Origin: Schizochytrium sp. TIO01
Taxonomy: Eukaryota; Sar; Bigyra; Thraustochytrida; Thraustochytriidae
DNA length: 64,000 bases
Reading direction: 5' to 3'
Assembly: GCA_004764695.1 (NCBI GenBank)
Contig: SMSO01000014.1
Span: 3,051,148 to 3,115,147, forward strand
Shown: piece after piece, positions 13,301-45,281 of the stretch
Layout of the letters: each line of letters opens with the position of its first letter
Numbering within the stretch: position 1 is the first letter of the stretch
The notes under the pieces: generated by a model
Database searches by the model: none
Told to the model about the DNA's origin: nothing
What the model saw: the letters and a program-made list of their open reading frames with translations, nothing else
Program-made: the position numbers and the translations under genes

Positions 13301-16300
13301 CAAACTCCAGCCTGGATCGTAATGATTTCGGCTAATAAACATAGACTGTGGGAAAGCAATAGGCGCAGGAGACTCATTAAGCTTCCTGTGCATAGCAAAT
13401 TCAGAACATGAGAAAAGACCCATGGCAGGAGCTGCATTCTCTTTTCCGAGTAGATCAACATCCCAAGGCCTAGGCTCTTCGTCTTTTCTGGAGTACTTCT
13501 TCTTAACATACTCTTCAGGCTCCATTTGTTGCACCTGCTCTTGCTCTTGTTCTTGCTCTTGCTCCTGCTCTTGCTCTTGCTCTTGCTCCTGCTCTTGCAC
13601 TTGTTCTGCATTGAACACTTGCTCTTTGGCAACCTCATCATTTGATCCAACACCCTCTACCCCAGCCAGCGTTGGTGCTAAGGAACCAGAATGAGCTGCA
13701 GCCCGGCTACGCTCTTCAGCTTGTCGCATATTCTCAATGATCATATTGATGATGTTGTGATCTGATTCGGAAGCAATCAAATCTTGATGATCTGTAACCA
13801 TGGTATTAATCTTTTCCAGGAATGGACGAGCCTTTGGTACAGCTGTAGCAACGGAAAAGTCCATTCGTTCGCGGAATGCATCAACAGATTTTTCCAAATA
13901 CTGGCTTTGGGGTGAAATGTCGCCACGAGTGCCAACCTTATCGGTGTTACAAAGAATGTAGTAATGTGCACGTTTCCTCCAGACATTGCTTGTGCTCTGT
14001 TCACAAAGAAGGTTGAACTGAATTTTTTCAGATCGCATTGAGTTAATCACTAACCACTCTGTAACCTCCCTTAAATTTTCAGCAAGCTCAGCTGAGTACT
14101 GGTAACTACCTTCTTGGTTTTGAGCGCGTTGCGCAGAAGCATTTTGCGCAGCTAGTTTTGATAGTTCATTAGGACTGACCGTCTGACCACGGCCTGCAGC
14201 AATCTGGAGCTTAATCAACATGCTCACTTCTGGAATGATAAGCACTTCAAGAGTTTGGCCAATTCCAATACCACGCATACGAAATGCACCCTGAGCATAG
14301 TCCCGGAATGTCATATCCTTACCTAGAGTAATTGCGGCACGGGCACTGATTGCTTGTTTAATGTCCATACCAGTTGTATGGACCTGGTCATAAAATGAGA
14401 AGCGTCGGTCTGGAGCAATACCTGAGCGATCAAGCGGAATCACCTTTCCAGACCGCGTTAAAACCATCTTGCGGTCAGCACTATCCAAGAAGACTACACC
14501 CTCTAGCTCCTCGGAAAGACCGTTGCGAAGTAAGAACGCAGCAACTTCAATGTTGCTTAGGCCTGTAATCAATGCACCTGTATCAATAAGTGCGTGATAT
14601 GTTGGTTGAGCTGTCGCGATTGCTTTCAGCAAGCTTTCAACTGACCATCCGTTCTCAATGAGACGAATTGACATTACTGAAGGATCAGTCAGGTAGTAGA
14701 GCATTTTACCATCAGAGCCTTTCTCATAGTGGCATTCACCAAGTTCCACCGGCAAAAGATCCGAAGGGGTTCCACTGAAGCCAATGCGCCTTTGAAACAT
14801 GATATTACCTCCGAGTTCTTGCCCGCAAGCGGAGATTTTAAGACCGTGATGCTGCATGGTCTCCGGGAAAATATACGCTGAAAGATAATAAAGGATAGCA
14901 TGGGGTGATCTGTGTAAAAGTCGATAGAGGACGTCGATCTGGTGTGCATCTGATAGATCAATCAATTGCAAAGGCCATAAGTCATCGAACTCAGGATTAC
15001 GCGGGGTGCCAGTAGCTCCTCCTGATTTATCCTCAAGTGCAGTACCCTCATCGCTAACATTGACCTCCTGCTCGCCAAACTTTGTTTCTTCAGTTGTAAC
15101 ACCTGCAGATGCTTTGAAGCGACGCTTATGAGCTTCGACCTTGGTACCTCGCACACGGCCGCCCGCAAGGGATACCCACTTGATAAAAAGTCGTGAGGCT
15201 TCTCGCTTCATGTATGGACCGACATCCTCCTCCAGGAGCTCACGGAGATGGCGAAGGAGCCACATGAAATCTGACATTCTCAGGCCTTCATACCGATAAG
15301 CAAGAATGGTTAGACCTAATACTACGTCAGGGTGAGAAAATTCTGAGGCACGGGAAGGACAATCCTTGCCCACAAAAGGAATAGCAAGAAGCTTGCGGTT
15401 CTTCGGCATGAAGGGATCGAGAGCCATAAACTTCTCGAGATCAGACTTATTCAAAAGACCGAACTTAACGCGGTTAATCTTTGCCATCACAAAGGGCGTG
15501 AATGTTCCAATCCACTCGCGTGCAAGATTAATCATCTTAACGCTTTCATCAGTCAAGCTAGTATTGATGATCTCTGCTGCCTTGGGTGCCCCCTTTGCGC
15601 CTCTTGTCATGTAATCGAGAGCATCCTGATCAGAAATACCATGAAGTCCACGGGTGGATAGAAAAAGAAGCATCCATTGCGCCAACAAACCTCTCAATTT
15701 AGCTGTATAAAACGAACGAGACAATAAGACCAAGTGTGGTTGTTGCTGCATCAGATTGAGTTCGCAGCCATTCTTGATAGCCTCGTTGATTTCTTTCAGC
15801 AATTTGTTTGCTGTGCGCGAACTAGTGTAATCTAATGTGGTTTGACCAGCATCTTTAGCAAAGAACGCATCAAGAAGATGAAACGGAATCATCCAGCGCA
15901 TACCATCATGGCCCCGGAGATGACTTCTCGTGAAGTCAAGCGGAACCTTGTTACCAATGGGCCAGTTCAGCTCAGAACGAAGCGGGTGCAAAATCAAATC
16001 CACTTCATCAAGTATCAACACGCCATCACGGAAGAGATCGAGGATTCGAGTGGATAGACGCATTTGTTCACGCAGCATATTCGCCTCACCTTCCGTAAGC
16101 ATCTTCCGCGGTTTTGTTGTCATACGGAATGCTTCCTTAAAAAAGGAAGCAATCATGCTAGGCGCTGATCTCATTTCATCATCGCTCTCATACTTTGCGG
16201 CATCTAGAAGATGTGCAGCTTCAACAAGCTTTAAAAAGAAGCTTTTTAAGGCCGTAGGTGTTGTACATACCACCGCACGGGACTTGCGGGCAATCAAAAG

Positions 16301-19300
16301 CTTGCGGTACATCAGCTTGTCTACACTCGTAAATCGATCAAAGACAAAAGTGTAGACAGGCTTCTGAATGATAGCAGAGAATTTATCACGCATAACTGCC
16401 CGAGAGAATTCCAAAAGCGCGTGTGGAACAACTTGGACGACTAGCGATTTACCGTCGCCAAGAAGAAGAGCCAGAAGTGGGCCGACGACGGTAGTTTTAC
16501 CAGCACCCATAATCATTTGGTGACAACGTGACTCGCCATTTTGCAATGCTCCCATGAAGTCATACACAAGCTCAACCTGTGACTTGCGCAAAAGAATACT
16601 ATACGTAAATTCGAAAACAAGGAATCGTGGATCGTAGGTGTATCGAGATTGTCCACTGGTTGGTTGGTGAACATAGTGGCGATGAGCCGTTAGCTCGGAG
16701 ACTACTGCATCACTTTTTAATTGGAGGGCCGGCTCGGGTTCCTGAGCCGCCAATGCACGATAGAGCTCGTGTGCGGCACCAATGGCTCGCAAAGTCTGCG
16801 CCATGCGATTCACACGCATTAGAATAGCAGTACACAAATCATGCACCTCGGTGAGAGTTTCCCTTGTTAAGAACGGATTCAGCTGTGAAAGGTGGAAATC
16901 ACCAAGTCGTGACATTAGGTTTCCAACAAGAAGCTCAAACCATATCTTGGGTTCGTTACCACTGTACTGATTCAATAAGTAGCCAAGACGCTTCCGCATT
17001 CCATATTCCCCATATGTTTCCTTTGAGGAAACATCAACCCAATTGACGAGGTCAAGCATGCTTGTCACAGACGATTCAGCAATTTTGCTGTCTCGTTCGT
17101 ATAGCTGCTCTAGCTTGAGAATCAAATCCTGGATTTTATCGCGCTGTCGAAGCTTATCAATTGTTGCTGTATTTGAAATGCGCTCAAACGCAGCAGCATC
17201 ATCACGCATACGCTTTAAGAGATCCAGAGCAATATGAGAGCGAGCCATAGCATGCTTATCAACCTTGAGCAGCTGTTCTGGGTCTCCCTTCGGGACAAGG
17301 CTGACTTCGGCCATACCAAGACTCTGACGAGATTCGTGTGAAACATGCGGCTCCAAACCGATGGATTCAAGTGGCGCAGAGGAGAACGCCCTCGCTTCCT
17401 TCGCCTCGAGACCGACAAAACTGCTTCCGTCTGGGCCAGTGGCTTCCAAAGGTCCAAACTCTCTAGATTCCAAGCCCAAATCAAGGACACGAGGCGCAAG
17501 CCAAGCACGATCACGGCGATGATTTGCACTTAATGGAAGGCTCACGTGTGTTCCTGGACGCCACGGTGTAAATTGGGTTGTTGTAGGCGGCCAGTGAATG
17601 GCTGCTGCCTTGCTTCGAAGCAAGCTGTTACAGCGTTCCAGGAGTTTTTGTACTACATTTTGCCCCTTGAAAATGACCGTGAATTTGTGTTTACGATCAT
17701 CCTCGTACTTAGGCATTTCACGAATAAGCTCTGGGTTATTAGAGAGGATCCGTAGAATTGAAGTCATTGTCTGAGTCTTTTTGAACTTGTGGGGAGGCAT
17801 CATATGTAAAAGTGCACACGCCCAGTTGTACGGGTTATCATCATCCAGGATGCGAACGGACAAGGTACCTGTCATTAATTCATAAAGAAAGAGAAATCCC
17901 TTCGATGTTTCACCTCCTCTGATAGAAACACCCCGCTGCACCATATCGTTGAAGATTCGCAAAGCTTCCACTCCGCTCGTGTCTGCAGGACGTTCGTACG
18001 ACATTGGTTTGAGCGATGAAAACGCGCGCAATGTTCTTCGCCATGAGGATGCATTCTTGCGATCCTCAAGTGCAGTGTCATCTCGGACTTGATCAAAGCA
18101 CACGCTTGGTTTCGGGCGTTGAGGATGAAAGACTACAAGCTCATCAAGATCAGTCTTGGAAGTTTGTCCAAGTGCAGTAAGTTGCATAGCGTTTAAGAGG
18201 GCCCGGCGATTGAACAAAAGCTGACCATTATTTCGCTTTGAAGCGCGTAGCAGGTTTCGTGCGGGTGCACTATTTGCAATTTCCTCCAAAAGGGTCAATT
18301 CTTCTGATACAGAAAGGCGACAACTCGCGCTTACGCGTCGATGTTTGATTGCATACAGGGACATTTCTTGAACCAAATTCCATGGAAGTCGCATCACATT
18401 GCGAGATCCTATTGTCACAAGACTGAGCTTCAAGCGACAAGCATGAGCATCGGGATGCATATCAAAATTCATACTTCCAAGGAGATCTAGAAGCTGATCT
18501 TCCTCGGCTGAAAGCTCGGTGTCAGTGACACATGCATCTGCAATTCTATATGCCTGTTCATAACGACGAGACATGAAGCGCATGAGAAACAGATAAAGTG
18601 CTGAGCTCAATGTTGGGGTGAACAAGAAAAGCTTGGATAAATGCACCGGGTACAGATAGTGACGCACATCGCCAAGGTTTGAGTTCCATTCAGGACTTGT
18701 TTTATTCAGAACTAGTTCCGTGGCAAAAAGGAGCTTTGGAACGACTGGGCGTGTTGGAAATGCTGTAGCTGCAACCAAAATGAAAAGTTCACCCTTCCAG
18801 TTCTCCAGGAGCACGGCATGTGGTAAGCCTTGAAGGAGATTGATAACTCGTGGATCACGGTTCGAGCTGATGTAAAGACCAGTATGCTCCTGGCTAAATA
18901 ATTTCAAGTTTGATGGGGTGCCAGGCTGAGCAGCCTCTTCCTGCAAACGGAATGAAAGTCTCACTCGAGGAAGTTCCACAAAGTCAATGCGGCATACGTC
19001 ATCTGGTTTTTGCACATTCGAATACGTCCAAACAAGAATATGTGATAAGTTGTCAAGACGCAGCAAGATGTTTGAGAGCTCTTTCAGAGGGCTTGAGGCA
19101 GGGGCATGCAACAAGTTAAGTAACGTATGGCATTCCTCAGTTCCCATACGAGGACCAGAATCTATTGTGATGTATCGCCGAATAAGTGCATAAGCCTTAG
19201 AATTGCCATAACCACTTGTATCATCTGGACCATGAGGTATAATTTCCACATGAAGACGTGATTTAGGCTTCACAATTCTGCTCATACGATCCTGCGAGGC

Positions 19301-22300
19301 CTCTTCGTCCTTTGGAAGATGATCTAGATTACCCCCCTCTTCGTTTCCGTCCGTTCGAACAATCTCATAGCCAATAAGAGCCTTACTTTCGAGATCTTGC
19401 CAGAATTCATACTCATCGAGAAGACTCTCAGGAATGAGACCTTTCAGAAGACGGCGTGGGATGTATTCTTGAACTCCCATTTCCTTTGTTAAGTTTCGTG
19501 TGATGACAAGGGATGACGCGGGTGGACGTGGTTTGTCACGAACGGATCCAATGCTAAGTACTGGCGAACCAGTTGACCAGGACAACGAAGGGACCTCTCC
19601 AAAGTCACCAAGGCAAAAACTTGGATCGGAGCTGTAGACAAGTGAGCGGTACCAGCGGCGGCCGTGTTCAATGACTTCATACACATGTACAACACGAGGT
19701 ATCTGGAAGACGACAACCTCAAGGAGCGTTGGCGGAATTGGACGAGAAGGGGTGTCGGGTGGAAGATCGGGATCGAGATAATAGTCAGGTCCCTTTACAA
19801 AACCACCCAACACAGCAAAACTCTGCTTGCCATAAGAGTTCTTTGGTAAACATAGCTCAACATGAGAAAGAATCGTATTCGCGTATGGATCCAAGGTGGC
19901 CTTGATCCAACCTTCAGTGGCATCGAGAGAACTTGGGTATGGGCGTGGGTATGGGTTCTCTGCATCCGCGCGCCAGTCTGGAGTCCATAATTGCACATCA
20001 TGGCGACGGCCAACGAGACGCTTCCAACTGCGATTCTCGGTGTCCTTGACCTCTGCACATTGAATTCCATGGCCAAGGTTGGGATTGATATCACCAAAAA
20101 CATCCCGAAAGTCCTCCATATAGACAAACTGATCATCCAGCAGTTTCATAGGGTGCTTCTTCAATGTAAACTCGCCTATTTGCACATTAATTTCTGTATC
20201 TACGCTTTGCGTAGTCACAACACGCATCCATTCTTCAAAGTCTCGTACCTCACGTGCTTCGTCAAGGCAGCGCCGCAGCTCGTTCACCTCTGTGTCAGGC
20301 ATGAAGCGGCCAAGACACCCAGCGATTTCCGGCGATTGCCATGTACGAATGAGAATGTCAGGCTCTTCAGATGTTTTTGACTCTGTGACCATACCACTCT
20401 GCTTATCTTCAGTAAGACTGATCACCCTTACAATAGCCTCCATGGTCTTATTTCTATCTTGTGGGTTAGCCTCAAGCCAGCGAAGCATTTTACCACGGTG
20501 TTTTTGATATAGAGAGAAAAACTCGTTCGGTGAAATGCCCAAGTTTAAGGTGTCGTCTGCTTCTCCATCAGCCTTCTTACCAGATCGTTTCACACCCTTG
20601 GCAGCAGACTCTGGGTCAAGTTCCATGTGAAAACGAAAGTTGACTGTGACGAAGATGTACGAAATGAGAATCGCTGATACAACACGACGATCCATATCCT
20701 CCTCTCGAGTTCCCAAACAGAGGTAAGCCATATGAGCATGGAACACACATGCAAGTTGCATTTTACGTGCTTTGGTTGCAACACGACACCATTGATCAAG
20801 CATGGGGTAAACTGAAGAGTCCAACTTGGTTCTGAGCTTGCTGCGCATTTCCACAATGTAGGGGATAGAATCCGTTGTTCCAGGTACATATAAACCACGG
20901 ACCATTGATTCGGGTCCAGAGCGAGAAACGGGATCTTCTGCGACCCTGCGTGCCACTTGCTGTTCAATCTCATCCCGCTCAATAAGAAAATCCATGTACT
21001 CAAGAATGCGTACGACTAAACGGGTCACATATAAGATGACTTGCGAGGACCCAGGTGAGTAATGTCCAACATCGAGTTCAATAGCATAGAAGAGCATATT
21101 TTCCACAGCATCCAGAATGACTCGAGGAGCATGCTGGAGCTCATTAAACAACAAACCCACCGGAGTACAAAGGTGAGAACGATCTTTTGTTGGCACAACT
21201 CGAGGTTCCTCAACAAGGCCATCTGGCTGGAACATCCCTGGTTCGTAGAGGCAAGCATCAAGCACTTCCTGAAGTTTTGGTTCTGACAGCGCAGAAATGC
21301 GAATCTGATCAGAGAAAAACTGTAAAATGAGAGGAATACGTAGGTATGGAGCAGTCAAATACTGCAAAAGCAACTCACTGTCACTTGCCCTAATTTTGCC
21401 TCCAAAGTCGGGAAGATCCTTGACGTGCAAAACATCATCTTCTGTTTCGATATTGGTACCAGCCAAGTTAGAAGCATCGCCTCCAGACGGTGGTGCACGA
21501 GGGAGAGTGTCCGCGCCAAGGCCAACAAAGTCGAGTAGTGAATGCAAAGCAGACTTTTTGACATGTGTATCCGGCCGGTATGTGCGAACGTAAGCTGCAC
21601 ACGCAAGTTTATCTTTTCCAAATCCAGCAACATCTAAGGTAATGCGACGCTCAATTTGAGGAGGATGTCCCTCAGTAGAAATAGGTGCGTTTTCGTCATC
21701 TTTGACTTTTCCAATAGTCCAAATTAGTCGAGCGTCTGTTGCCTTCCAGTGACGAAGCTCCGGCAAAGCATTTGCTGTAGGTGCAAGGAGTGACTTGAAA
21801 AGAAAAACAATATCTCGGAAAAGAGCAAGTTCTGGGTAATGATCTACAAGAGCTGGGTTCTGACCCGCAAAATATGCTGCAAGGCCACGACTACCATCAG
21901 AACGATCAAAGCCCATTTGCACACAAAGCTGGTTCACGAGTCGCTTATCAGCGTCACCAAATTCCATAGAGTGCTCAAAGCGGAACATAACATGATCGAG
22001 GCGCACGGTTTCCTTCAGTGCAGTGAAGTAATCCAATACTTGTGTTCGAGCTGTAGTTAGGTAAGGATCCGCAAACGCCAAGAAACCACTCTCCTCCACG
22101 AAATAGCCAATATCAAAGGCAAATGGATGCACCGGTCCTGCAGCCTGGCCGTCGTAATGAAGTGAGAATTGTGACGGGATATCAGAAGCGTAGACACGAA
22201 CAACACAATCAGCAATCGTTGCAATGCACGCCATCGTAATAATACGCGCTGCATCAAAACTACGGGTAATGCGCACAGAAAGCGCCGCACTGACAAAGTG

Positions 22301-24838
22301 GCGACCTACGAGTTCCAACAAGCGTAAAATGTCAGCTTGTGTCTCGTATCGCATTGCTCTAGAGTACCAAAAACAGTGATCGGGGCGGCGCGGGTCGTTG
22401 CGAGGAAGCGGAAGAGGAATAACTTGAGTAAAAAGATGCTGGATCAGTGCAACACGAATACAATAAGTGTTGCGAATCAGGTCCTTTTGGTTGTCAAGCA
22501 GCGTACACACATTGACACAATGACGAAGGGCTAACGCTACATCGTTGAAATTTTCGACTCGGTCTGGAACTAAGGTGAGCTGGACTGGGCGTAAGATAGG
22601 TGGGGGAGTTGCCTCGCCAGCCAGATGTTCGACACTGCAATCACGACGAAACTGCCCAAACATAGGCATACAAGCTGCCCAGGCAACCTTGCCACTATTT
22701 GGCAAAGCCAAGGCCGGTGGGAGACTTCGCTCATCGAAGGGTTTGCTAAGGGTTGCAATGCGTCCGTCAATTGAGTTAATAAGGGTGGCAATCTCTTGTA
22801 AATGCTCAGTTGTGGTCGGGGAGTTTTTCTCTTCGAGACTGCGTTTTGCAGCATTATCAGCAAGTTGCTTGAGCGCTGTCCGCATTGTCACAGCATCACC
22901 TCCGTAGACCATGTTTACCCTGCTCAAGTCATGCTGCATCATTTCGCAAACTTCCATACGAAAAAGAAGTGACACATGTTTAGCCTGATAATGATTCAGA
23001 CCAAGGAAGATAAGACATTGGCGCATGCATGCTTTGAGCAAGTGAAAGAAGGAGCCATCGGCGACGTCTCGCTGCGTGCGCATATCCATGACCGAGATAT
23101 CATAAGAGGCACGATTATTGTATAAATGCTGACGCGTGAGGTATGACATGAGAGTCTCATAAATCATCTTGGCATTGTTTTTAACATGGTAGAAAATCTT
23201 CGCTCGAAAGAGAAGAAACCAAAAGGATGAGTCGATCAAACGTTCTGCTGGGATGTCTGCGACCGTGTAACAAAGGTTTCGTTTCATTTTGCCAGTTTCT
23301 TCATCCAACCGTGCGGCGTGATAATCGAACCCATCCCAGCGCGGGGTTGGCTCGCCAGCAAAGTTCTGCTGCATTTGTTGTTCTTGCTCTGCCAGAGGAT
23401 GACCAGTGTTACATATAGTAATAGAAAATGTACTCTCCTGTCTTACGAGGATGTACATGACCAAATGGGAAAGGACGCCACGAGTACCCGAGGTCTTGTA
23501 CCCAGTATTCTCCTCAGATCGTCGGTTTGGCTTTGGGGGTGAGGGTGGTGCTGTTTGGCTCTCCGGCCTGCTGTCATCGTCTTTGTTTCCATCAGTTTTA
23601 GAGAATCGCTTTCTCATACTCTGTCGCTTCTTAAAGCTTTTGCGACTGCTAGGGTTGTCAGGCTGCTCAGCTTCATCTTCAGAAGAGTCGGATGATTCAT
23701 CAACGAGATCTCCAACAGATGTATCTGAAGTCCACCCACCGGGGAAGCAGATTACATCTCCGCTGCGCATGCTACGCACTCGCTGCACGAAACCGTGTAA
23801 GAAAGCATGGAAGTCAGCCTTCTGGGTCTGTGGTTGCAAGGGTAGGTTAACGACGACCCATGCAGCCAATGCAAATGCATTTTTGAGACTACGCAATGCC
23901 CACTTATCTCCGTTCTTGGCAACAAGCCTTTCCATAGCAGAACTAATGAACTCCAAAGTCATTCCAAGGGAAGTGAGTTCATCTGTAGGATTAGAAGGCC
24001 AAGTTCCCATGATGTAGCGGTCAGCAGACATACCGATAAATCCCGGATGGCGCCATAAGGGCTCCTTGCCGAGCATAAAACCAGAGGTAGGACCGGCTAT
24101 TGTCACGTTTGATTGCGGAGTGCTTGGAGGTGGCACGTTGAGGGGCATAGAATTCTGAGAAGATGCAGGAGGAGGAGGAGGCTGGGGAACTCCTTGGTTA
24201 ACCCGCAGCGTTGGCATTGATGCCACCGGCGGTGGTCCAGGTGACGTAATGGAGGACACAGATGATGCAGCGGGACGACCTGCAGGGGGTAAAGAGGAAG
24301 CTGACACTGATGAGACCATTCCCGAGTTTGCTGTAGGTCTCAAAGCTGCTGATTGAGCCTGTGATGAGGGCGCAACAGGTTCACAATAGTTTTTAGGGAT
24401 AAGGCCTGATCGTCCCCGAATTGTGCCATACCACCATTCAGGATCCTCAGATTCAACAACTTCAACAATATCCCCGACCTTGACTTCCAGTTCATCCTCC
24501 GCACTAGGCTCAAAATCCCATAGAATGCGAATCTGCTTTTTGCTACTTGAAGGCTTGGACGATGACGGCGTTGCCGATCGTGCCTGGGATGCAGTTGCAG
24601 CAGCAGTTGCGCCAGTCTTTGGGCGAGGTGGTAGCGCGGTGCTAGATGTCCCTGATGAAGCATCATCAAGTACCTTGACATAATCACGTGGGAAGAGTCC
24701 CTCCGGCCCTCCTGGCTTGCGACCTTTCCACCAACCGGCTTCGTCCGTGGAGTTCGTTACCTCAATTATATCACCGGTCTTGAGGCTAATCTCGTCATTG
24801 GACTGAGCATCAAAATCATATAATGCACGGGCCCTCAT
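10343..24838 (-). CDS. Giant SH3-SH3-DUF3638/DUF3645 (SF2-like NTPase)-EF-hand protein
   Basis: 4831 residues in one open frame; the start is ATG 24838, since the longer frame starts at TTG. Two SH3 domains lie at residues 1-58 (ALYDFDAQSNDEISL) and ~96-152 (ILWDFEPSAEDELEV), followed by Pro-rich linkers. The core matches the DUF3638/DUF3645 family, found in very large fungal proteins often labelled ubiquitinyl hydrolase. It shows a Walker A QMIMGAGKTT near residue 2776 (16510), DEVD near 2943 (16010), GFSGTPSD near 3349 (14780), and TTGMDIKQ with QGAFRMRGIGIGQ near 3500, an order like SF2 helicase motifs I, II, III, V and VI. A Glu-Gln repeat (~3750-3770) precedes one EF-hand (~3896; DLDGNKRLDKDEL) and a pair (~4180-4220; DSDRNGKVGCSEL, DRDMDGYLSLDEF). 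The tail is Pro/Ser-rich. Function unknown; Ca2+ binding and NTP binding are inferred from motifs. Confidence 0.85.
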   Translation of the reverse strand: MRARALYDFDAQSNDEISLKTGDIIEVTNSTDEAGWWKGRKPGGPEGLFPRDYVKVLDDASSGTSSTALPPRPKTGATAAATASQARSATPSSSKPSSSKKQIRILWDFEPSAEDELEVKVGDIVEVVESEDPEWWYGTIRGRSGLIPKNYCEPVAPSSQAQSAALRPTANSGMVSSVSASSLPPAGRPAASSVSSITSPGPPPVASMPTLRVNQGVPQPPPPPASSQNSMPLNVPPPSTPQSNVTIAGPTSGFMLGKEPLWRHPGFIGMSADRYIMGTWPSNPTDELTSLGMTLEFISSAMERLVAKNGDKWALRSLKNAFALAAWVVVNLPLQPQTQKADFHAFLHGFVQRVRSMRSGDVICFPGGWTSDTSVGDLVDESSDSSEDEAEQPDNPSSRKSFKKRQSMRKRFSKTDGNKDDDSRPESQTAPPSPPKPNRRSEENTGYKTSGTRGVLSHLVMYILVRQESTFSITICNTGHPLAEQEQQMQQNFAGEPTPRWDGFDYHAARLDEETGKMKRNLCYTVADIPAERLIDSSFWFLLFRAKIFYHVKNNAKMIYETLMSYLTRQHLYNNRASYDISVMDMRTQRDVADGSFFHLLKACMRQCLIFLGLNHYQAKHVSLLFRMEVCEMMQHDLSRVNMVYGGDAVTMRTALKQLADNAAKRSLEEKNSPTTTEHLQEIATLINSIDGRIATLSKPFDERSLPPALALPNSGKVAWAACMPMFGQFRRDCSVEHLAGEATPPPILRPVQLTLVPDRVENFNDVALALRHCVNVCTLLDNQKDLIRNTYCIRVALIQHLFTQVIPLPLPRNDPRRPDHCFWYSRAMRYETQADILRLLELVGRHFVSAALSVRITRSFDAARIITMACIATIADCVVRVYASDIPSQFSLHYDGQAAGPVHPFAFDIGYFVEESGFLAFADPYLTTARTQVLDYFTALKETVRLDHVMFRFEHSMEFGDADKRLVNQLCVQMGFDRSDGSRGLAAYFAGQNPALVDHYPELALFRDIVFLFKSLLAPTANALPELRHWKATDARLIWTIGKVKDDENAPISTEGHPPQIERRITLDVAGFGKDKLACAAYVRTYRPDTHVKKSALHSLLDFVGLGADTLPRAPPSGGDASNLAGTNIETEDDVLHVKDLPDFGGKIRASDSELLLQYLTAPYLRIPLILQFFSDQIRISALSEPKLQEVLDACLYEPGMFQPDGLVEEPRVVPTKDRSHLCTPVGLLFNELQHAPRVILDAVENMLFYAIELDVGHYSPGSSQVILYVTRLVVRILEYMDFLIERDEIEQQVARRVAEDPVSRSGPESMVRGLYVPGTTDSIPYIVEMRSKLRTKLDSSVYPMLDQWCRVATKARKMQLACVFHAHMAYLCLGTREEDMDRRVVSAILISYIFVTVNFRFHMELDPESAAKGVKRSGKKADGEADDTLNLGISPNEFFSLYQKHRGKMLRWLEANPQDRNKTMEAIVRVISLTEDKQSGMVTESKTSEEPDILIRTWQSPEIAGCLGRFMPDTEVNELRRCLDEAREVRDFEEWMRVVTTQSVDTEINVQIGEFTLKKHPMKLLDDQFVYMEDFRDVFGDINPNLGHGIQCAEVKDTENRSWKRLVGRRHDVQLWTPDWRADAENPYPRPYPSSLDATEGWIKATLDPYANTILSHVELCLPKNSYGKQSFAVLGGFVKGPDYYLDPDLPPDTPSRPIPPTLLEVVVFQIPRVVHVYEVIEHGRRWYRSLVYSSDPSFCLGDFGEVPSLSWSTGSPVLSIGSVRDKPRPPASSLVITRNLTKEMGVQEYIPRRLLKGLIPESLLDEYEFWQDLESKALIGYEIVRTDGNEEGGNLDHLPKDEEASQDRMSRIVKPKSRLHVEIIPHGPDDTSGYGNSKAYALIRRYITIDSGPRMGTEECHTLLNLLHAPASSPLKELSNILLRLDNLSHILVWTYSNVQKPDDVCRIDFVELPRVRLSFRLQEEAAQPGTPSNLKLFSQEHTGLYISSNRDPRVINLLQGLPHAVLLENWKGELFILVAATAFPTRPVVPKLLFATELVLNKTSPEWNSNLGDVRHYLYPVHLSKLFLFTPTLSSALYLFLMRFMSRRYEQAYRIADACVTDTELSAEEDQLLDLLGSMNFDMHPDAHACRLKLSLVTIGSRNVMRLPWNLVQEMSLYAIKHRRVSASCRLSVSEELTLLEEIANSAPARNLLRASKRNNGQLLFNRRALLNAMQLTALGQTSKTDLDELVVFHPQRPKPSVCFDQVRDDTALEDRKNASSWRRTLRAFSSLKPMSYERPADTSGVEALRIFNDMVQRGVSIRGGETSKGFLFLYELMTGTLSVRILDDDNPYNWACALLHMMPPHKFKKTQTMTSILRILSNNPELIREMPKYEDDRKHKFTVIFKGQNVVQKLLERCNSLLRSKAAAIHWPPTTTQFTPWRPGTHVSLPLSANHRRDRAWLAPRVLDLGLESREFGPLEATGPDGSSFVGLEAKEARAFSSAPLESIGLEPHVSHESRQSLGMAEVSLVPKGDPEQLLKVDKHAMARSHIALDLLKRMRDDAAAFERISNTATIDKLRQRDKIQDLILKLEQLYERDSKIAESSVTSMLDLVNWVDVSSKETYGEYGMRKRLGYLLNQYSGNEPKIWFELLVGNLMSRLGDFHLSQLNPFLTRETLTEVHDLCTAILMRVNRMAQTLRAIGAAHELYRALAAQEPEPALQLKSDAVVSELTAHRHYVHQPTSGQSRYTYDPRFLVFEFTYSILLRKSQVELVYDFMGALQNGESRCHQMIMGAGKTTVVGPLLALLLGDGKSLVVQVVPHALLEFSRAVMRDKFSAIIQKPVYTFVFDRFTSVDKLMYRKLLIARKSRAVVCTTPTALKSFFLKLVEAAHLLDAAKYESDDEMRSAPSMIASFFKEAFRMTTKPRKMLTEGEANMLREQMRLSTRILDLFRDGVLILDEVDLILHPLRSELNWPIGNKVPLDFTRSHLRGHDGMRWMIPFHLLDAFFAKDAGQTTLDYTSSRTANKLLKEINEAIKNGCELNLMQQQPHLVLLSRSFYTAKLRGLLAQWMLLFLSTRGLHGISDQDALDYMTRGAKGAPKAAEIINTSLTDESVKMINLAREWIGTFTPFVMAKINRVKFGLLNKSDLEKFMALDPFMPKNRKLLAIPFVGKDCPSRASEFSHPDVVLGLTILAYRYEGLRMSDFMWLLRHLRELLEEDVGPYMKREASRLFIKWVSLAGGRVRGTKVEAHKRRFKASAGVTTEETKFGEQEVNVSDEGTALEDKSGGATGTPRNPEFDDLWPLQLIDLSDAHQIDVLYRLLHRSPHAILYYLSAYIFPETMQHHGLKISACGQELGGNIMFQRRIGFSGTPSDLLPVELGECHYEKGSDGKMLYYLTDPSVMSIRLIENGWSVESLLKAIATAQPTYHALIDTGALITGLSNIEVAAFLLRNGLSEELEGVVFLDSADRKMVLTRSGKVIPLDRSGIAPDRRFSFYDQVHTTGMDIKQAISARAAITLGKDMTFRDYAQGAFRMRGIGIGQTLEVLIIPEVSMLIKLQIAAGRGQTVSPNELSKLAAQNASAQRAQNQEGSYQYSAELAENLREVTEWLVINSMRSEKIQFNLLCEQSTSNVWRKRAHYYILCNTDKVGTRGDISPQSQYLEKSVDAFRERMDFSVATAVPKARPFLEKINTMVTDHQDLIASESDHNIINMIIENMRQAEERSRAAAHSGSLAPTLAGVEGVGSNDEVAKEQVFNAEQVQEQEQEQEQEQEQEQEQEQEQVQQMEPEEYVKKKYSRKDEEPRPWDVDLLGKENAAPAMGLFSCSEFAMHRKLNESPAPIAFPQSMFISRNHYDPGWSLHTHRRIKNVIILMEWVPDLAAITNAPHLLGDTKTRMTDEKRSHLARAFEMLDLDGNKRLDKDELFELMLALDVAPDNLLRGTNEVVGFDDVTVEADEKQGKLVASGGFDGEPLSSEEQREYLENFLIYELADSLKRLYQQNVDINQFGGVDMEGFKALVEQRVFYHLQGGRHFSVLSLYEAECLRGLMHMRQRQGKTIIDNNPNTFVGMHSLYTKSLLDSSLGYKGGSEYHQTSYYETYRFINSEVYFKERHLNMLLRALQVNVPEARERWFEEVRECRRRSRRPLRDTTLHRVFITDHEYTLLEERATISRIKGRIYQRGMFILDAFRAFDSDRNGKVGCSELYGALEWLGIHIQPHQVYAVMRNLDRDMDGYLSLDEFRAAFFDRRLEASMAERGLIVPQENFNDIVIEPKRIEELNSDPRQGQQIALENKALQADVVSQFRVKVKEVHHFNRVWNSRGSMTKLKASVWNPDVESSLLKQNRSKVCLGHYAHGSLDKPGGSKGIFSKSSPSDPIRGVKYTLEMRDNERWGVSGQNELMRPLINRIMPNPVRFNQVWSQQHGSPFFAWRPIPPSPAFVALGMVATTTDSPPDVTSVHCVPKHWCVRSSLKPEKVWEDSGASGGRPGSMWVVNSLRTMVVVEGHEFPEKEIVWDLRDRVFNLTQSDIEAIAQTRNAHGAVSTQDTVTQVPFQAPIATTSMQQGASNRSLQPSASNRSLQPRFDPSASSYSMPPPPVQPRQSMPRTGFTSASSPPAPPVPSQAAQQVIPPPVTPRTSSLPRNIAQANSGTAMHTPPPVPVSQPSQVPTRPPSRSLPHASFSSANQIPARQTSSSVSGLRPPAPQSQPNPTRSASTSAKVPPPLPNKSAEVFARSPSSSSIGSSLPTRSNDPVPSRQEPPRPKVSVQSSSTSAQQFQQNRSQIMARLDAQNGSSGRPTPARPTSMARTSSRPPPPVASTGRAVPQRPSLTPRPKDTTDDDSDGHPLA
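13528..13608 (-). repeat. Gln-Glu dipeptide repeat inside the giant protein
   Basis: Hexanucleotide-like (CAAGAG/CAGGAG) units encode about a dozen QE dipeptides just before the first EF-hand. The mixed synonymous codons indicate it is maintained rather than a fresh expansion. Confidence 0.85.
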
Positions 24839-26907
24839 GGTATGTGTCCAGCCTTCTCTCAATAATACCGAGTGCAATCTGGTCTTTCAGACCTTTGGTC
24901 ACGAAGGCCAAACCTCAAGTGTATTCTAAGACAGCACGAGTCACAAGCGTCTATTAGATGCTACGAGTTAAGTCTCTGATCAAAATGTCTCAATGAGTTC
25001 CTTTGGCAATTGGCCGGAAAAAAGACCTTGCTTGCAAGTTATCGTTCGACTTGCAATTTAAATCGTCAAAGCTCAAACTCGTAAGTTTGCTACCTTTGCA
25101 GTTTTTACCTATGTGCTGAGAGGTCTTCTATTCCTTACGTTTCTGCTTGGTTTCACAGCAGGGGTCAAGAGCAGCTGAGGGTCACAGGAGTAAGTTAAAT
25201 TCGAAAGTCGTCTGAGTCGGAGTCTCCAGCGGATGCCTCGTATCCTTCCCTGGAAAAACGAGCTTCGCAGGCACCAAGGCCCAGCGGAGGCAACTAGCAC
25301 CGGGCAAGCACGGGACCCCGAGAGGTCCACGCCGTTACGGAGCTGTCCCCCGGGAACGCAGCGCCTCCTGCGGCGAGCGTCGCCGTTCAGAGTCTGGGTC
25401 TCAGGCCGCTGACAAATATTGCCTTCAATTACCCTCCTTTATGACAGGTAGATGATTATAACGAGTACTATGCCAATTATCTTTTTTCCTTGTTTTCTTT
25501 TCTTTATTCTTTATTCTTTATTCTCTACTAATGAGATCATCGATATCACTGATTAGAATATCGTTGTCAACAAGAATTATGAACACCAATTGAGCATGAA
25601 TTCGAGGTCGAGAGAAGGCGAATTTCTGGTCGACTTTTGCTGCTTTGACGTGGCCCTGCAGCGCAGATTATTGACGGCGGACCCCAGTTTCTAGTTCGCT
25701 ATGGAGGTAGGTATATGCAGTAGGTACCCTGCTAGGGTGCTTTCTCGCGAATGTTATTGTTCATGTATTACAGTTCTCGCTTTTATTTCCTGCTGCTGCT
25801 GCTGCTGCTGCTGGAAGCTGCCATTTACCCATTCTCTTCTTCGAATTCTGTACTGCGAAACGAACGTCGATTTGCTCAATCTGCTCAACGCCGCTTCTTC
25901 AGAAGATTTAGCTTGGCGAGGAGAGCCTGCTAGGCATTGACGGGCCGTCGACAAGATGTAATGCAGGGCTGCTGTCAATAGTGAGGAGGAGTTAGTGAGT
26001 TATGGGTCAGGAACACCACGAAGGAGCACAACAAGGTTGCTGACTCGCTGGACTCAAACTGGCTGTGGCATGATGCATAATACTTCAGTTCGCCTTGGCT
26101 CCATCGGATCGAGCATCGAACTTTCGCAGACCGACCGATGGGCCGATTCCTTCTTGCGAAAACCGAAGGTCAGAGGTCTTCGATATCGCACAGAATCGAC
26201 AATGTATTTGAGAGAGCGAGCGCTGAACCTGGTGTAATGCGTGAGCTCTGTGTATTAGGACGATGTGGCATCCACTTCGCAGTAGAATGATGCCGACCAG
26301 CTCGTTCTCTGCCTCATCCTGTCACCTTTTCAAGAACCGTGTCACTCGCCAAACGTTCTCTCCCAAAGGGATAGCAACGCGAAGATCAGCCAGGCAAGCT
26401 CGACATATCCAGCGAGACCACACTAAAAGCACCACAAACAAGCTAATCTATGTTCGCCTGTACATGTATAGGCGTTTTGCTTTGAAAGCAACGCGGCCAA
26501 TGTCTACGTAAGCACCCAAGCAGAGCTTGTTCGTCTTGGCGCCGTAAACTACTATTTCCATGCATTTCTAGGATGTATGCTTTCGTAGAAAATGTTGCAA
26601 TAGTTGCAATAGTTTACAGCGTGGTCGCAGCGGACCCGCACTGCTATGGTTTCTGTTAGATACTCCCTACTGCAAGTGTTCTCCTTACCTTAGTACGTCT
26701 CTAGATAGGTAGTCTGTTCTATTGCATTTACTCCACCTTACTTACAATAGTAGTAACATCGTGAACAAATGGAATGTGGCAAGCGAGCACTGAGCAGATT
26801 GGCAGGCATAGCACATTTGCCCATCGCGCGTGGGTCTCCAGTTGCTCTGCGGGGACCACGCGTGCTGCGGGTATCCCACGAAGACAAATACCCAGCCTCC
26901 CCAAAGC
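24839..26907. other. Divergent intergenic region, about 2 kb
   Basis: Lies between the giant gene (-) and the NFACT-R gene (+). It holds a GC-richer block at about 25100-25420 and a (CTG)8 run at 25790-25813. Short frames here lack recognisable protein character. Presumably two promoters; an unrecognised upstream exon of either gene cannot be excluded. Confidence 0.4.
25790..25813. repeat. (CTG)8 microsatellite
   Basis: Eight perfect CTG units between divergent genes. Confidence 0.9.
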
Positions 26908-37945: not shown

Positions 37946-38266
37946 TTACTGCTGCTGCTGTTGTTTGCAAATGGCCTTGTGGCCAGAACGCCAATGGGCA
38001 AGCTGGCAGTCACGGCTGCAGTAGGTAGCCTTATGGCATCCACCACAGATCATCTCAGAGCGCTTGTTGCAACCGTCGTTGGAGCAAATGGAATCTGCAG
38101 GCTTGTTTTGGTCAAGGGTTACAACTGGTGCGGCGGCTTGCGAAAAGCTATTCTGGCGAGAAAGAGACGCCTTAGGAGAGCCTTGCGAAAAGCTGTTCTG
38201 GCGAGAGAGTGACCCTACAGGGGATCCTGGGCCCTGCGAAAAGCTATTCTGACGACTCAATGGAAC
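37946..38266 (-). CDS. Ser-rich repeats plus MYND zinc finger: probable C-terminus of the opsin gene in a shifted frame
   Basis: An open frame with no ATG at its start overlaps the end of the opsin frame by about 20 nt and lies one nucleotide later in phase. It encodes three copies of (L)SRQNSFSQ separated by GPGSPVGS- and GSPKAS-type spacers. A complete MYND finger follows (C-SNDG-C ... C-GG-C ... YCSRDCQ ... HWRSGHK..C, eight ligands), then a short poly-Gln end. The last opsin-frame residues (NRMNSFSVPNSPTGS) are a diverged copy of the same repeat, so both frames belong to one gene. Continuity needs either a one-base frame change at 38261 or a small intron with length 1 mod 3. For example, an acceptor CCCCAACAG ends at 38267, paired with the weak donor GTTTCA 91 nt upstream. 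MYND fingers bind Pro-rich peptides in partner proteins. Confidence 0.7.
   Translation of the reverse strand, partial: VPLSRQNSFSQGPGSPVGSLSRQNSFSQGSPKASLSRQNSFSQAAAPVVTLDQNKPADSICSNDGCNKRSEMICGGCHKATYCSRDCQLAHWRSGHKAICKQQQQQ
38138..38260 (-). repeat. Three SRQNSFSQ coding repeats
   Basis: Units begin at 38260, 38209 and 38164. The RxxSFS core is preserved with synonymous differences. RxNS fits basophilic kinase sites (PKA/CaMK type); this use is inference. Confidence 0.8.
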
Positions 38267-39995
38267 CTGTTGGGGAGTTGGGAACGCTAAAGCTGTTCAT
38301 GCGATTCATGGCAACCTGCTGACCTGGCACCTGTGCTTGGATTTGTTGAGGTGAAACTGGAACGTTAATGTAGGGCATCTGGGGTTGCATTTGCTGCTGC
38401 ATTTGGGGTTGCATCTGGGGTTGCATCTGGGGTTGCATCTGGGGTTGCATCTGGGGTTGAAACGGAAGCCCTGCCGGAGCATAAAACGAAGCGGAGTGCG
38501 GCATGATCATGGGGCTTTGACGAGCGGCTAGGGCTGCAGAGATATCGTTATCATCGTAGGTATGTCCAGTGCTAGACGGAAATTCGGGCATGTCGCGGAG
38601 AGTCTTGCCTGGCGTAGCACGAATGAGATGCAGTGAACCAGCAGAACGACGAATCTCAGACTCGACCTCACGAGCACGGGCAGTTTCGCGCCACAAGTAA
38701 GCAGTCTGAGCCCAGTGGCGAATGAGGTCTCCTAAGAATGCCTCATCAAGAACGTGATGTACAATTCCATGGGACATCTCGTTGTTGCGGTCCTCCTTCT
38801 CTAGCATAGAGACACTGTTGTCGTCAAAGGTGTATCCAAGTACAGGAATCTGGAAAGGCTCCGAGCCGACAATCTTCTTAAAGTCCTTGAGGGAGTTCGG
38901 GTGATCAAAGTGCTTGGTGAGGCTGACAAGAATAGTCTCAAACTCATCAACACGTCCACGGCGAAGAATCTGTTTTGCGTTGTTGAGGTCCATAGCCATC
39001 ACACACTCCACATTGACATCCTTAAGCATGTACATAAACAAACGCTGGTAGCTCACTTCGGGCTCAATGACCAAGACCTTGACAGTCTGCTCAGCGTTCC
39101 ATACACGGCTCTTGTTGGCTGCGTTTTCTGCGTCTTCATCTTGCTCCGGGGTGGGTACAACCATATGCGTAGAGTAGCGCACAGTGTGGCTGACAGGGTC
39201 AAGCTCGTAACCAGTGTAGACACAAACATTGGAGCCACGGCTCTGAAGGTAGGGAAGAAGCTTGTTGTATCGCATGTACCACATGCCGAAGCCAAAAAGG
39301 TTCTTGCCAATCAAGTCGCCAATAGCATGTCCAATCACATCACCTTCGTGGGAGATCACATTTAGAACAGGGGGGCCAAGGAAGTAGAGAAGAGGAAAGA
39401 TACCCCAAGAAATGAAGAGCAGGGCAGTAATTCCGTGGAGCCAAACAAGAAGATCACCCTCTGCGAACTGCTCTTGGCGCATGCGCTCAAGAAAGTACAC
39501 GTCTGTCATGAAGTAAATGACTGTGGAAATGGCACAGGCTAGGAAGATGTAGCGCACAAGATCTGTCTCTTGAAATGTTGCTGTGATACCAAAACCCATG
39601 ACGAGGAGATCCTTCATTACCATGAAGTTAACTTTCACAGGTTCAACATTGGGACCAAGCATACTAATTAAACCAAAGAATCCAAACAGCATAACAGGGC
39701 AGGTAACCATCCATACAATGTATCGGCCAAGCGCAACATCACGAATTTCATCACCAAAAGCAACACGCGCGAATAACCAATTTCCCTTGCCAACAGCAGC
39801 TAGTCCATACACCACAGCAGTCACAAACTGTACATAGATCGAGTACAGCGTACTACGGCCGTAATGCCACTGGTACGTATAGAAGATTACAAAAAAGATG
39901 GATGTGGCACATGTTACACCACGAACCAACGAGCCAGCAATACCTAAAGGTTCATACTCGACCAAGGTCATCAGGACCTCTGTCTCGGTCGTCAT
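38244..39995 (-). CDS. Channelrhodopsin-like opsin with degenerate receiver domain
   Basis: 583 residues from ATG 39995. Seven TM helices occupy residues ~18-245. The retinal lysine is K231 in GHAIGDLIGKNLFG, with D227 kept as second counterion. TM3 reads RYIVWMVTCPVML, the channelrhodopsin signature (RYxxWxxTCPV), and TM6 has SWGIFPLLYFLGP. At the primary counterion site (BR D85, ChR2 E123) there is V94; BR D96 is G105; ChR2 E90 aligns with T59; ChR2 C128 is C99 and D156 is G134. Loss of these carboxylates resembles anion channelrhodopsins, reported from labyrinthuleans (RubyACRs), rather than pumps or cation channels. Residues ~304-395 look like a two-component receiver (VKVLVIEPE), but the phospho-Asp position is Ser (ILVSLT) and the Lys is missing, so it cannot be a normal phospho-acceptor. 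A QPQM repeat tail follows. Anion conduction is inferred. Confidence 0.9.
   Translation of the reverse strand: MTTETEVLMTLVEYEPLGIAGSLVRGVTCATSIFFVIFYTYQWHYGRSTLYSIYVQFVTAVVYGLAAVGKGNWLFARVAFGDEIRDVALGRYIVWMVTCPVMLFGFFGLISMLGPNVEPVKVNFMVMKDLLVMGFGITATFQETDLVRYIFLACAISTVIYFMTDVYFLERMRQEQFAEGDLLVWLHGITALLFISWGIFPLLYFLGPPVLNVISHEGDVIGHAIGDLIGKNLFGFGMWYMRYNKLLPYLQSRGSNVCVYTGYELDPVSHTVRYSTHMVVPTPEQDEDAENAANKSRVWNAEQTVKVLVIEPEVSYQRLFMYMLKDVNVECVMAMDLNNAKQILRRGRVDEFETILVSLTKHFDHPNSLKDFKKIVGSEPFQIPVLGYTFDDNSVSMLEKEDRNNEMSHGIVHHVLDEAFLGDLIRHWAQTAYLWRETARAREVESEIRRSAGSLHLIRATPGKTLRDMPEFPSSTGHTYDDNDISAALAARQSPMIMPHSASFYAPAGLPFQPQMQPQMQPQMQPQMQPQMQQQMQPQMPYINVPVSPQQIQAQVPGQQVAMNRMNSFSVPNSPTGSIESSE
38383..38460 (-). 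repeat. 12-nt tandem repeat encoding MQPQ units
   Basis: Near-perfect ggttgcatctgg (plus-strand) units encode consecutive MQPQ tetrapeptides, with one MQQQ variant. High DNA identity suggests recent expansion or contraction. Confidence 0.85.
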
Positions 39996-43301: not shown

Positions 43302-43517
43302 GGACAACTTATATGAAAATAATCCATTGACTCGCATATAGCTGCTTGCTCACGACATCAATACTGGTGATTTAAGGGTTATCAAAGAACAATAGAAGAG
43401 CGACCTGTTGCGAAGGTGTCTTGCTTGCAGGATCAACTATATTAGATTCACTGTCTTGGAACGTGGCTGCAATAGCTTCAATTTTTGCTGCGTAGGAAGT
43501 GAACAACGTACTTTAAA

Positions 43518-45281
43518 ATGGACAACTCTGGAGAATATAGCCAGGAGGAATTTGAAGACGATACACAACAGCTTCGCTACTCGTCTCAAGGCCGTAAAAC
43601 TAATGCACAAAATCCAGAAGATTATTCTGAAGATGCTGATGAGTATGAAGATATTGAGTCATCTGAAGACGAGGATGAAAGCGCCGGGATGGGCGAACAA
43701 GAGCAAATAGAAAAACTTCGCCTTGCGAATGATGTTTTACGAAAACAGCTTAAGGACTTTGGTCGTGTTTTCGAGGCGAGTATGAACAGCAAACCTGGAG
43801 CAGGACTCGCTTACAAGGCTAGTTCTGGTGGTTCATCTGATAATGGAAAACGATCTTTGCGAGCAATTATTCAGTCTAAGCAAAAACAAGTGCAAGGGAT
43901 GCAGAAAAAGCTGGATGCATACAAGAAAAACAACCAACAGTTGAAAAGACAAATGAAGGAAGCATTCACAACAGACCGCGTCCTCTTACTTACGAATGAA
44001 GTTGAGGAAAAACAAAGGCAAATCGATCAACTTGTGGAGGACAACCGAAGCTTACAAACCTTGCAGAGAACACACGCCAAGCGCATTGCAAAACAACAAG
44101 AGTCTCGAGGAAATTGGTCGACCAAGCTCACGAATCTTCAAGAAGAACTTCGTGTCGCTCGGGAAACCTTGCGTAAATACCGTGAGAAGTCAAGATTTGC
44201 CGAGGAAGAATCCAATCGTCATCGAGAGCACATTATGAAGCTAACAGATCGCAACAAGGAACTCAAGTCAGAAATTAAACGATATGAATCAGCGAATGGA
44301 AAGGCAAAGACTCGCGAAACACTTGATGCAGAGGAGCAGCAGTCCCGCTGGGACGAAGAAAGGCGTAAGCTTGAGCATGCTATTCAGGTCCTTGAGAAGA
44401 GCAATAAACAAGAGCGAATTAAAGCACATCAAGCTACTAAGCAACTAGAGGTCAAGGCACGTGAACACGAATCTGCAATCGAGAAAATGCAGACTGAGCT
44501 TGATCTACGTGAAAAGGATATGCGTTTTCAGCTTGTGCAGATTAAAAAGCTCAAGAAGGGTTTGCGCGAGCTTGCCCTTGGAGACACCCCTCTTAACATA
44601 GGCGACACACCTTGGTCGAGCAATATGCACCATTTCCTTAACAGTAGCGTTAACTTTGATGATGATGAAGGGAATGATAAACAGAGTCCAGCTGTTTCTC
44701 CACATCAAAGATCGTCACCAAAACATTCAGTGCAGTCGCCAACTATTTCTAATTCAGGTCGCGAACCAGCATCCCCCAGCACATCTCCAAAGCCTCGACC
44801 TGGTCCCCCCGAAGGCCGCAGCCCCCCAATTGAGCGTGGGCCTCGAGTCGCGCGCACCAGTGCATCTGCAGCCAGTGCAATTCCAAGTACAACACAGGAT
44901 TCCTCCGAATATGACGTCAAGAAAAGTGAAGACATGACTCAAGAGGAAGAAAATGGCTCTACTGAAGCTGGTGAAACAACCGAAAACGTGAATGCAAATG
45001 ATGCTGAAGTAGTCGATGACTATCATGAGGAACCCATAATTGCAAGGAACAAAACAACGGAATCCATCAACGAGCAGCACAACAATCGAGAAAGAATTGA
45101 GGATGAAGTTGATCAAACACTTGAAGATGAGGACTACACTGAAGGTGATAACATCGAGGATAATGACTCATCTGCCTCACGAACTAATTCAGGTACAGCA
45201 TCAGATATTTCCTCTTCCCAACCAAAGTCTGCATTCGCAAAACCAATGATGAAATCGAAAAAGAAGAAGAAGAAGTTTTAA
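43518..45281 (+). CDS. Lebercilin-like coiled-coil protein
   Basis: 587 residues; ATG in good context (aaaATGg). The acidic N-terminus (residues 1-60, SSEDEDES) is followed by a long coiled coil (about 65-360). Within it, the segment with EEKQRQIDQLVEDNRSLQ, LQRTHAKRIAK and LREELRVARETLRKYREKSR-type spacing resembles the lebercilin domain of LCA5/LCA5L. Lebercilin localises to cilia and interacts with intraflagellar transport in animals. After residue ~390 the protein becomes Ser/Pro-rich, then very acidic, ending in a KKKKKKF-type basic tail. The assignment is by heptad pattern and motif spacing, so another ciliary or centrosomal coiled-coil protein is possible. A flagellar role fits an organism with zoospores. 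It converges on the MYB gene. Confidence 0.65.
   Translation: MDNSGEYSQEEFEDDTQQLRYSSQGRKTNAQNPEDYSEDADEYEDIESSEDEDESAGMGEQEQIEKLRLANDVLRKQLKDFGRVFEASMNSKPGAGLAYKASSGGSSDNGKRSLRAIIQSKQKQVQGMQKKLDAYKKNNQQLKRQMKEAFTTDRVLLLTNEVEEKQRQIDQLVEDNRSLQTLQRTHAKRIAKQQESRGNWSTKLTNLQEELRVARETLRKYREKSRFAEEESNRHREHIMKLTDRNKELKSEIKRYESANGKAKTRETLDAEEQQSRWDEERRKLEHAIQVLEKSNKQERIKAHQATKQLEVKAREHESAIEKMQTELDLREKDMRFQLVQIKKLKKGLRELALGDTPLNIGDTPWSSNMHHFLNSSVNFDDDEGNDKQSPAVSPHQRSSPKHSVQSPTISNSGREPASPSTSPKPRPGPPEGRSPPIERGPRVARTSASAASAIPSTTQDSSEYDVKKSEDMTQEEENGSTEAGETTENVNANDAEVVDDYHEEPIIARNKTTESINEQHNNRERIEDEVDQTLEDEDYTEGDNIEDNDSSASRTNSGTASDISSSQPKSAFAKPMMKSKKKKKKF

Follow-up and report, generated by a model that had tools for sequence, protein, structure and literature searches.

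The question raised by this locus is whether an opsin and a MYND zinc finger, which lie in different reading frames of the same strand, are two parts of one protein and what such a protein would do. In the window (the whole 64,000-nucleotide stretch of DNA analyzed, from Schizochytrium sp. TIO01), the opsin occupies a minus-strand open reading frame (39995-38244) of 583 residues counted from the first Met, and the MYND finger lies in the frame 38296-37946, which differs from that of the opsin in this assembly. The initial annotation read the two as one photoreceptor of apparently new architecture. The best explanation of the whole, to which we give slightly better than even chances, is a single gene for a labyrinthulean channelrhodopsin with a docking tail, the stop at 38244 being an artefact or a strain allele. 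Within this explanation, the domain order, the joint presence of the domains in relatives, and the missing phospho-acceptor aspartate are read directly from sequence comparison.

Features of the opsin-MYND locus, in window coordinates
Feature	Coordinates	Strand	Basis
Opsin-MYND gene, likely single	39995-37946	(-)	Opsin ORF plus next frame
Channelrhodopsin-type 7TM opsin, residues 19-252	39240..39941	(-)	Pfam PF01036, solved-channelrhodopsin alignments, invariant columns
Pseudo-receiver (REC-like), about residues 304-436, with Ser in place of the phospho-Asp	38688..39086	(-)	Predicted fold, alignment
Long helix predicted at the end of the receiver core and beyond it, about residues 418-459	38619..38744	(-)	Structure prediction
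Gln/Met-rich linker with QPQM repeats; length differs from P0004	38376..38459	(-)	Translation, alignment
Ser-rich repeats with R-x-x-S-F sites: MNRMNSFS, then three SRQNSFS copies	38138..38309	(-)	Translation, alignment
Frame-change site, with in-frame stop 38244-38246 in this assembly	38244..38266	(-)	Codon score, P0003/P0004 continuity
C-terminal MYND zinc finger, eight C/H ligands	37967..38086	(-)	Pfam PF01753; 25/43 identical to P0005 (gap columns excluded)
MYND-frame stop codon, likely the usual protein end	37946..37948	(-)	ORF list; codon score drops nearby

The opsin matches Pfam Bac_rhodopsin (PF01036) at 7e-25, and the nine best of the 15 solved sequences matched at E ≤ 1e-6 are channelrhodopsins (5.7e-15 for 3ug9; 3.3e-7 for the GtACR1 structure 6csm). 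K231, D227, C99, and D129 are invariant in five aligned sequences (window protein included), as is the motif R91-Y92-x-x-W95-x-x-T98-C99-P100. Alignment to solved channelrhodopsins identifies K231 as the Schiff-base (retinal) lysine and D227 as the helix-G aspartate/counter-ion. From the alignment as read by eye, we take C99 and D129 to be the counterparts of the ChR2 C128/D156 pair; Val94 stands at the bacteriorhodopsin D85 position and Thr59 at the ChR2 E90 position. The locus thus encodes a 7TM Bac_rhodopsin domain with the retinal lysine and the helix-G aspartate, its closest solved relatives are channelrhodopsins, and the C/D pair is present; the channelrhodopsin-type assignment first made on K231, D227, and the RYxxW motif stands.

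Phenylalanine at the bacteriorhodopsin D85 position is a RubyACR feature in the portion of PMC12448745 available. The window gene has V94 instead, and the phenylalanine occurs in its two paralogues in this genome (L002 and L003). According to an excerpt of PMC8406140, a ChR2-E90-type glutamate is kept in most anion channelrhodopsins (ACRs) but not in prasinophyte or Labyrinthulea ones, and Thr59 fits Labyrinthulea because that source excepts the group. The channel is probably anion-selective; the signs are indirect, namely V94 and T59 in place of carboxylates and the ACR name that PMC12221091 gives to A. limacinum channelrhodopsins.

The window protein is, by its sequence, a labyrinthulean channelrhodopsin and so belongs to a known group. 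It shares with RubyACRs and AlACR1-3 their lineage, the channelrhodopsin motifs, and the lack of a glutamate at the ChR2 E90 position (PMC8406140, in part). A profile search of the genome (64.06 Mb, 37 contigs) located at least three Bac_rhodopsin places and at least 10 zf-MYND places; the three opsin genes found compare with three channelrhodopsins, AlACR1-3, named in A. limacinum in the available part of PMC12221091. The window gene probably corresponds to one of these three. According to the same source, AlACR1 declines significantly as zoospores settle, and the declines of AlACR2 and AlACR3 are without significance.

The receiver-like domain that the initial annotation placed after the opsin, around residues 300-400, takes a receiver fold in structure prediction, with four of the five strands of a full receiver and moderate model confidence. 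Pfam detects no receiver domain in the window protein (a paralogue reaches 0.24, below the cut-off), Foldseek returns no match to the model at E ≤ 0.001, and NCBIfam profiles give no match at 0.01 for the four proteins searched. At the phospho-acceptor position, placed by eye against the general receiver pattern, the window protein has serine, and P0003, P0005, P0006, P0007, and L002 have asparagine. The domain is accordingly a pseudo-receiver, with the receiver fold and without the phospho-acceptor aspartate, as first described. The full-length prediction is poor (pLDDT 48.6), leaves the MYND region without a resolved fold, and is unusable for the tail or the MYND finger.

The Ser-rich repeats and the complete MYND finger noted early on in the downstream frame were both recovered. 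The finger scores 3.1e-9 against zf-MYND (PF01753; 37.2 bits, cut-off 22.7), and its eight C/H metal ligands were read by eye. A chance match was considered and ruled out by the Pfam score and by conservation in relatives.

Protein searches, with the best 8000 candidates scored in each, yielded at least five distinct relatives (P0003 to P0007), and the fused homologues that the initial annotation proposed to look for are among them. P0003, from Hondaea fermentalgiana, is a 680-aa protein (73% identical over 99%) with opsin, receiver region, and MYND in a single frame; P0005, an unnamed protein of 630 aa (46% identical over 74%), has the same three parts in a single frame, and Pfam detects both opsin and zf-MYND in each. 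P0004 (436 aa, 98% identical over 59% of the query) derives from an MMETSP transcriptome and is assigned to Aurantiochytrium by its record name and its 98% identity, the taxid printed in the record being that of a fungus. It begins in the last TM helix and continues through receiver region, Ser repeats, and MYND finger, the last also detected by Pfam, in a single frame. The proposed union of opsin, pseudo-receiver, and MYND in one protein is thus borne out by P0003 and P0005 over its full length and by P0004 from the last TM helix onward. P0006 and L003 are nearly the same sequence. P0007, a protein of 415 aa in which the opsin is incomplete, comprises opsin and receiver, with Pfam matching the opsin only and no MYND finger evident on reading its sequence. 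Among viral contigs, one scan gave 49 pattern matches, none of which is a relative by tblastn.

The database entry of the Hondaea orthologue bears the name 'Programmed cell death protein 2', which suits no part of it other than the MYND finger. PDCD2 likewise has a MYND finger, but P0003 lacks the PDCD2_C domain, which occurs together with MYND in another protein (L010). The PDCD2 identity was therefore rejected and the name taken to be a mislabel.

Because these relatives carry the MYND finger in a single frame, a one-base frame change peculiar to this assembly or strain most likely accounts for the stop at 38244, which would then not be the usual protein end. The change falls inside the Ser-rich repeats, P0003 and P0004 align continuously across it, and P0004, compared as a transcriptome-derived protein, matches the window on both sides with no residues missing between. 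Trained on seven other long ORFs of the window, a codon score switches between the opsin and MYND frames at about 38250 and falls off close to the 37946 stop. Its values for the MYND frame are only weakly positive (0.9 to 7.6), those for the remaining frames negative; within the Q/M repeats (38480-38420), the opsin frame is outscored by a third one, an effect that repeats can have. The initial annotation had regarded transcripts ending at 38244, together with a lack of fused homologues, as fatal to the fusion. The outcome is largely in its favor: a transcriptome-derived protein crosses the stop in one frame, and there are fused homologues, but among cDNA-derived sequences none spans the TM helices to the MYND finger in one molecule, because P0004 begins only in the last TM helix.

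Alternatively, the protein of this strain could truly end at 38244: the product of a frameshift allele would be an opsin-receiver protein without MYND, and the MYND frame would be untranslated 3′ sequence. The stop is present in the assembly itself, a DNA search for a second copy or haplotype of the region matched the window alone, and both paralogues are intact ORFs that end without MYND. Against this reading, which we consider unlikely, P0004 and the Hondaea protein read through the site, and the coding signal continues downstream of it. A second gene of the window (61816-63592, minus strand) bears on the same point: its BAR (62192-63592) and SH3 (61816-62529) domains lie in two overlapping frames, and the codon score changes frame near 62220, in the direction also taken in the opsin gene. 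Either an intron or an error may lie behind this second change, and in the latter case the assembly would contain occasional errors of this kind. An intron joining the two frames, to give a MYND protein that lacks one of the Ser repeats, is highly improbable: 11 GT..AG stretches, 15-400 nt long and of the right length class, bridge the frames and one of them, of 52 nt (38266-38215), gives a clean junction, but P0004 retains, without a gap between its flanks, the residues that such introns would remove, chance GT..AG matches are likely because the Ser stretch is repetitive, and several long ORFs of the window are unbroken.

With the stop read as a frame change, conservation can be followed along the whole protein (gap columns are excluded from all identities, which removes five columns whenever the MYND finger is compared with that of P0005; P0004 stands for the tail of the A. 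limacinum protein, as the window protein is called here after its presumed host). Between the A. limacinum protein and P0005, identity is 122/233 (52%) in the opsin, 55/128 (43%) in the receiver, and 25/43 (58%) in the MYND finger, compared with 17-23% for linkers and repeats (linker 9/42, Q-rich linker 15/66, Ser repeats 7/41); the helix has 9/26. The Hondaea protein compares with P0005 similarly (126/233, 54%; 52/128, 41%; and 26/43, 60%, respectively). Between Hondaea and A. limacinum, the opsin (204/234, 87%) and the helix (25/30, 83%) are followed by the MYND finger (37/47, 79%) and the receiver (99/128, 77%). The MYND finger is thus kept about as well as the opsin in the distant comparison and slightly less in the close one, and in both its identity is far above that of the linkers in the distant set; the difference between 25/43 and 122/233 does not suffice to rank it above the opsin.

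The tails also carry putative phosphorylation sites, counted as R-x-x-S followed by F, I, L, M, V, Y, or A, a motif chosen after the tails were inspected. P0004 and P0003 have four each, in tandem repeats, a number reached by 0 of 2000 shuffles in either case. There are three in P0006 (20/2000 shuffles), three in P0007 (1/2000), two in L002 (252/2000), and none in P0005.

The two paralogues lie head to head (C31:1324595-1330256), with about 2.7 kb between the matched stretches, and consist of opsin and pseudo-receiver by alignment. Neither has a MYND finger at the end of its intact frame, and no zf-MYND place adjoins them; the window gene differs in adding one at its C-terminus, and MYND is therefore not needed for channelrhodopsins in general. 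The novelty first claimed for the architecture accordingly holds in part: its base is a known group whose paralogues share opsin and pseudo-receiver, but the MYND output end is apparently undescribed. No literature linking a channelrhodopsin to MYND was found in searches that did not take in the RubyACR paper or Rozenberg 2020, possible places for such a tail. The combination of channelrhodopsin and MYND gave nothing relevant by title and start of abstract, that of rhodopsin, MYND, and receiver domain gave nothing, rhodopsin with zf-MYND retrieved C. elegans work only, and rhodopsin, MYND, and thraustochytrid gave no such fusion among the matches listed, judged by title. MYND is also absent from the text of PMC7693036 on modular rhodopsins.

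Among seven of the nine other zf-MYND places of the genome, the finger most similar to that of the opsin gene belongs to P0008 (L015:277-1650, plus strand), with a pairwise score of 133 compared to 60-96 for the other six. P0008 is a low-complexity protein with a C-terminal MYND finger and, near its N-terminus, MGCASS, which we take to resemble an acylation signal. In the window itself, a divergent gene for a coiled-coil protein (43503-45278, plus strand) starts at a distance of 3.5 kb from the opsin gene's start and resembles the cilia-type protein Lebercilin (4.9e-8), though its 33.2 bits fall slightly short of the 34.3 cut-off. A minus-strand ORF of 4847 codons (10343-24886) begins with a stretch that resembles SH3 domains by eye.

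The resulting protein would comprise the 7TM opsin followed by a long cytoplasmic tail with, in order, pseudo-receiver, Q/M linker, Ser sites of basophilic-kinase type, and C-terminal MYND finger. In the zoospore, light would open a channel, probably for anions. The pseudo-receiver may serve as a fixed protein-protein or dimer interface rather than a phospho-switch, and phosphorylation of the R-x-x-S-F repeats by kinases could tune sensitivity or binding. The latter is suggested by the motif counts and by analogy to ChR1, whose phosphorylation is said to regulate phototaxis in Chlamydomonas (cited in the accessible part of PMC10637977). Through the MYND finger, the receptor would dock to a partner responsible for its placement in the flagellar or cell membrane or for its coupling to signaling, by analogy with DAF-25/CHB-3. 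As relatives share this combination of domains, the light sensor is probably also a docking platform.

DAF-25/CHB-3 is a MYND protein required for the localization of a membrane guanylyl cyclase to sensory cilia (PMC2991253 and PMC2991246, both in part), and DAF-25/CHB-3/Ankmy2 share with the role proposed for the window protein the link between MYND and the placing of a membrane receptor, in their case in cilia. They differ in that their MYND finger sits on a separate ankyrin protein, while in the window protein it is part of the receptor, so the likeness is one of analogy only. Green-algal histidine-kinase rhodopsins and two-component cyclase opsins also place further domains, including a response regulator, after the opsin (excerpts of PMC12558739 and PMC7693036); the window protein differs from them in having no detected kinase or cyclase, no phospho-Asp, and a MYND end. 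For Labyrinthulea, the available part of PMC8818676 proposes zoospore light sensing by membrane current and also reports channelrhodopsin homologues in a labyrinthulomycete without flagellate zoospores; zoospore phototaxis is therefore not the sole possible role.

Two other readings of the tail are each improbable in our estimation. Light might reshape the opsin-pseudo-receiver unit so as to expose or hide the MYND finger and the phospho-sites, which would switch partner docking and make a putative adaptor output primary and ion conduction secondary. Equally doubtful is a tail that acts mainly within the molecule and regulates ion selectivity and the photocycle, a role put forward for the cytoplasmic domain of GtACR1, with the MYND finger only stabilizing it and no outside partner. 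Full-length and tail-less GtACR1 do differ in nitrate preference and photocycle, but the GtACR1 tail is described as intrinsically disordered (both from the accessible part of PMC10637977); here, two recognizable folded domains are conserved, and MYND domains are thought to act in protein-protein interactions (PMC2991253, in part).

On the favored reading of a single-gene channelrhodopsin with a docking tail, that tail has two recognizable folded modules, one of which, the MYND finger, is kept in distant relatives about as well as the light-sensing part. The group includes a cultured model species, so the function of the tail is directly testable, and the MYND tail may serve as a natural docking tag for optogenetic channels.
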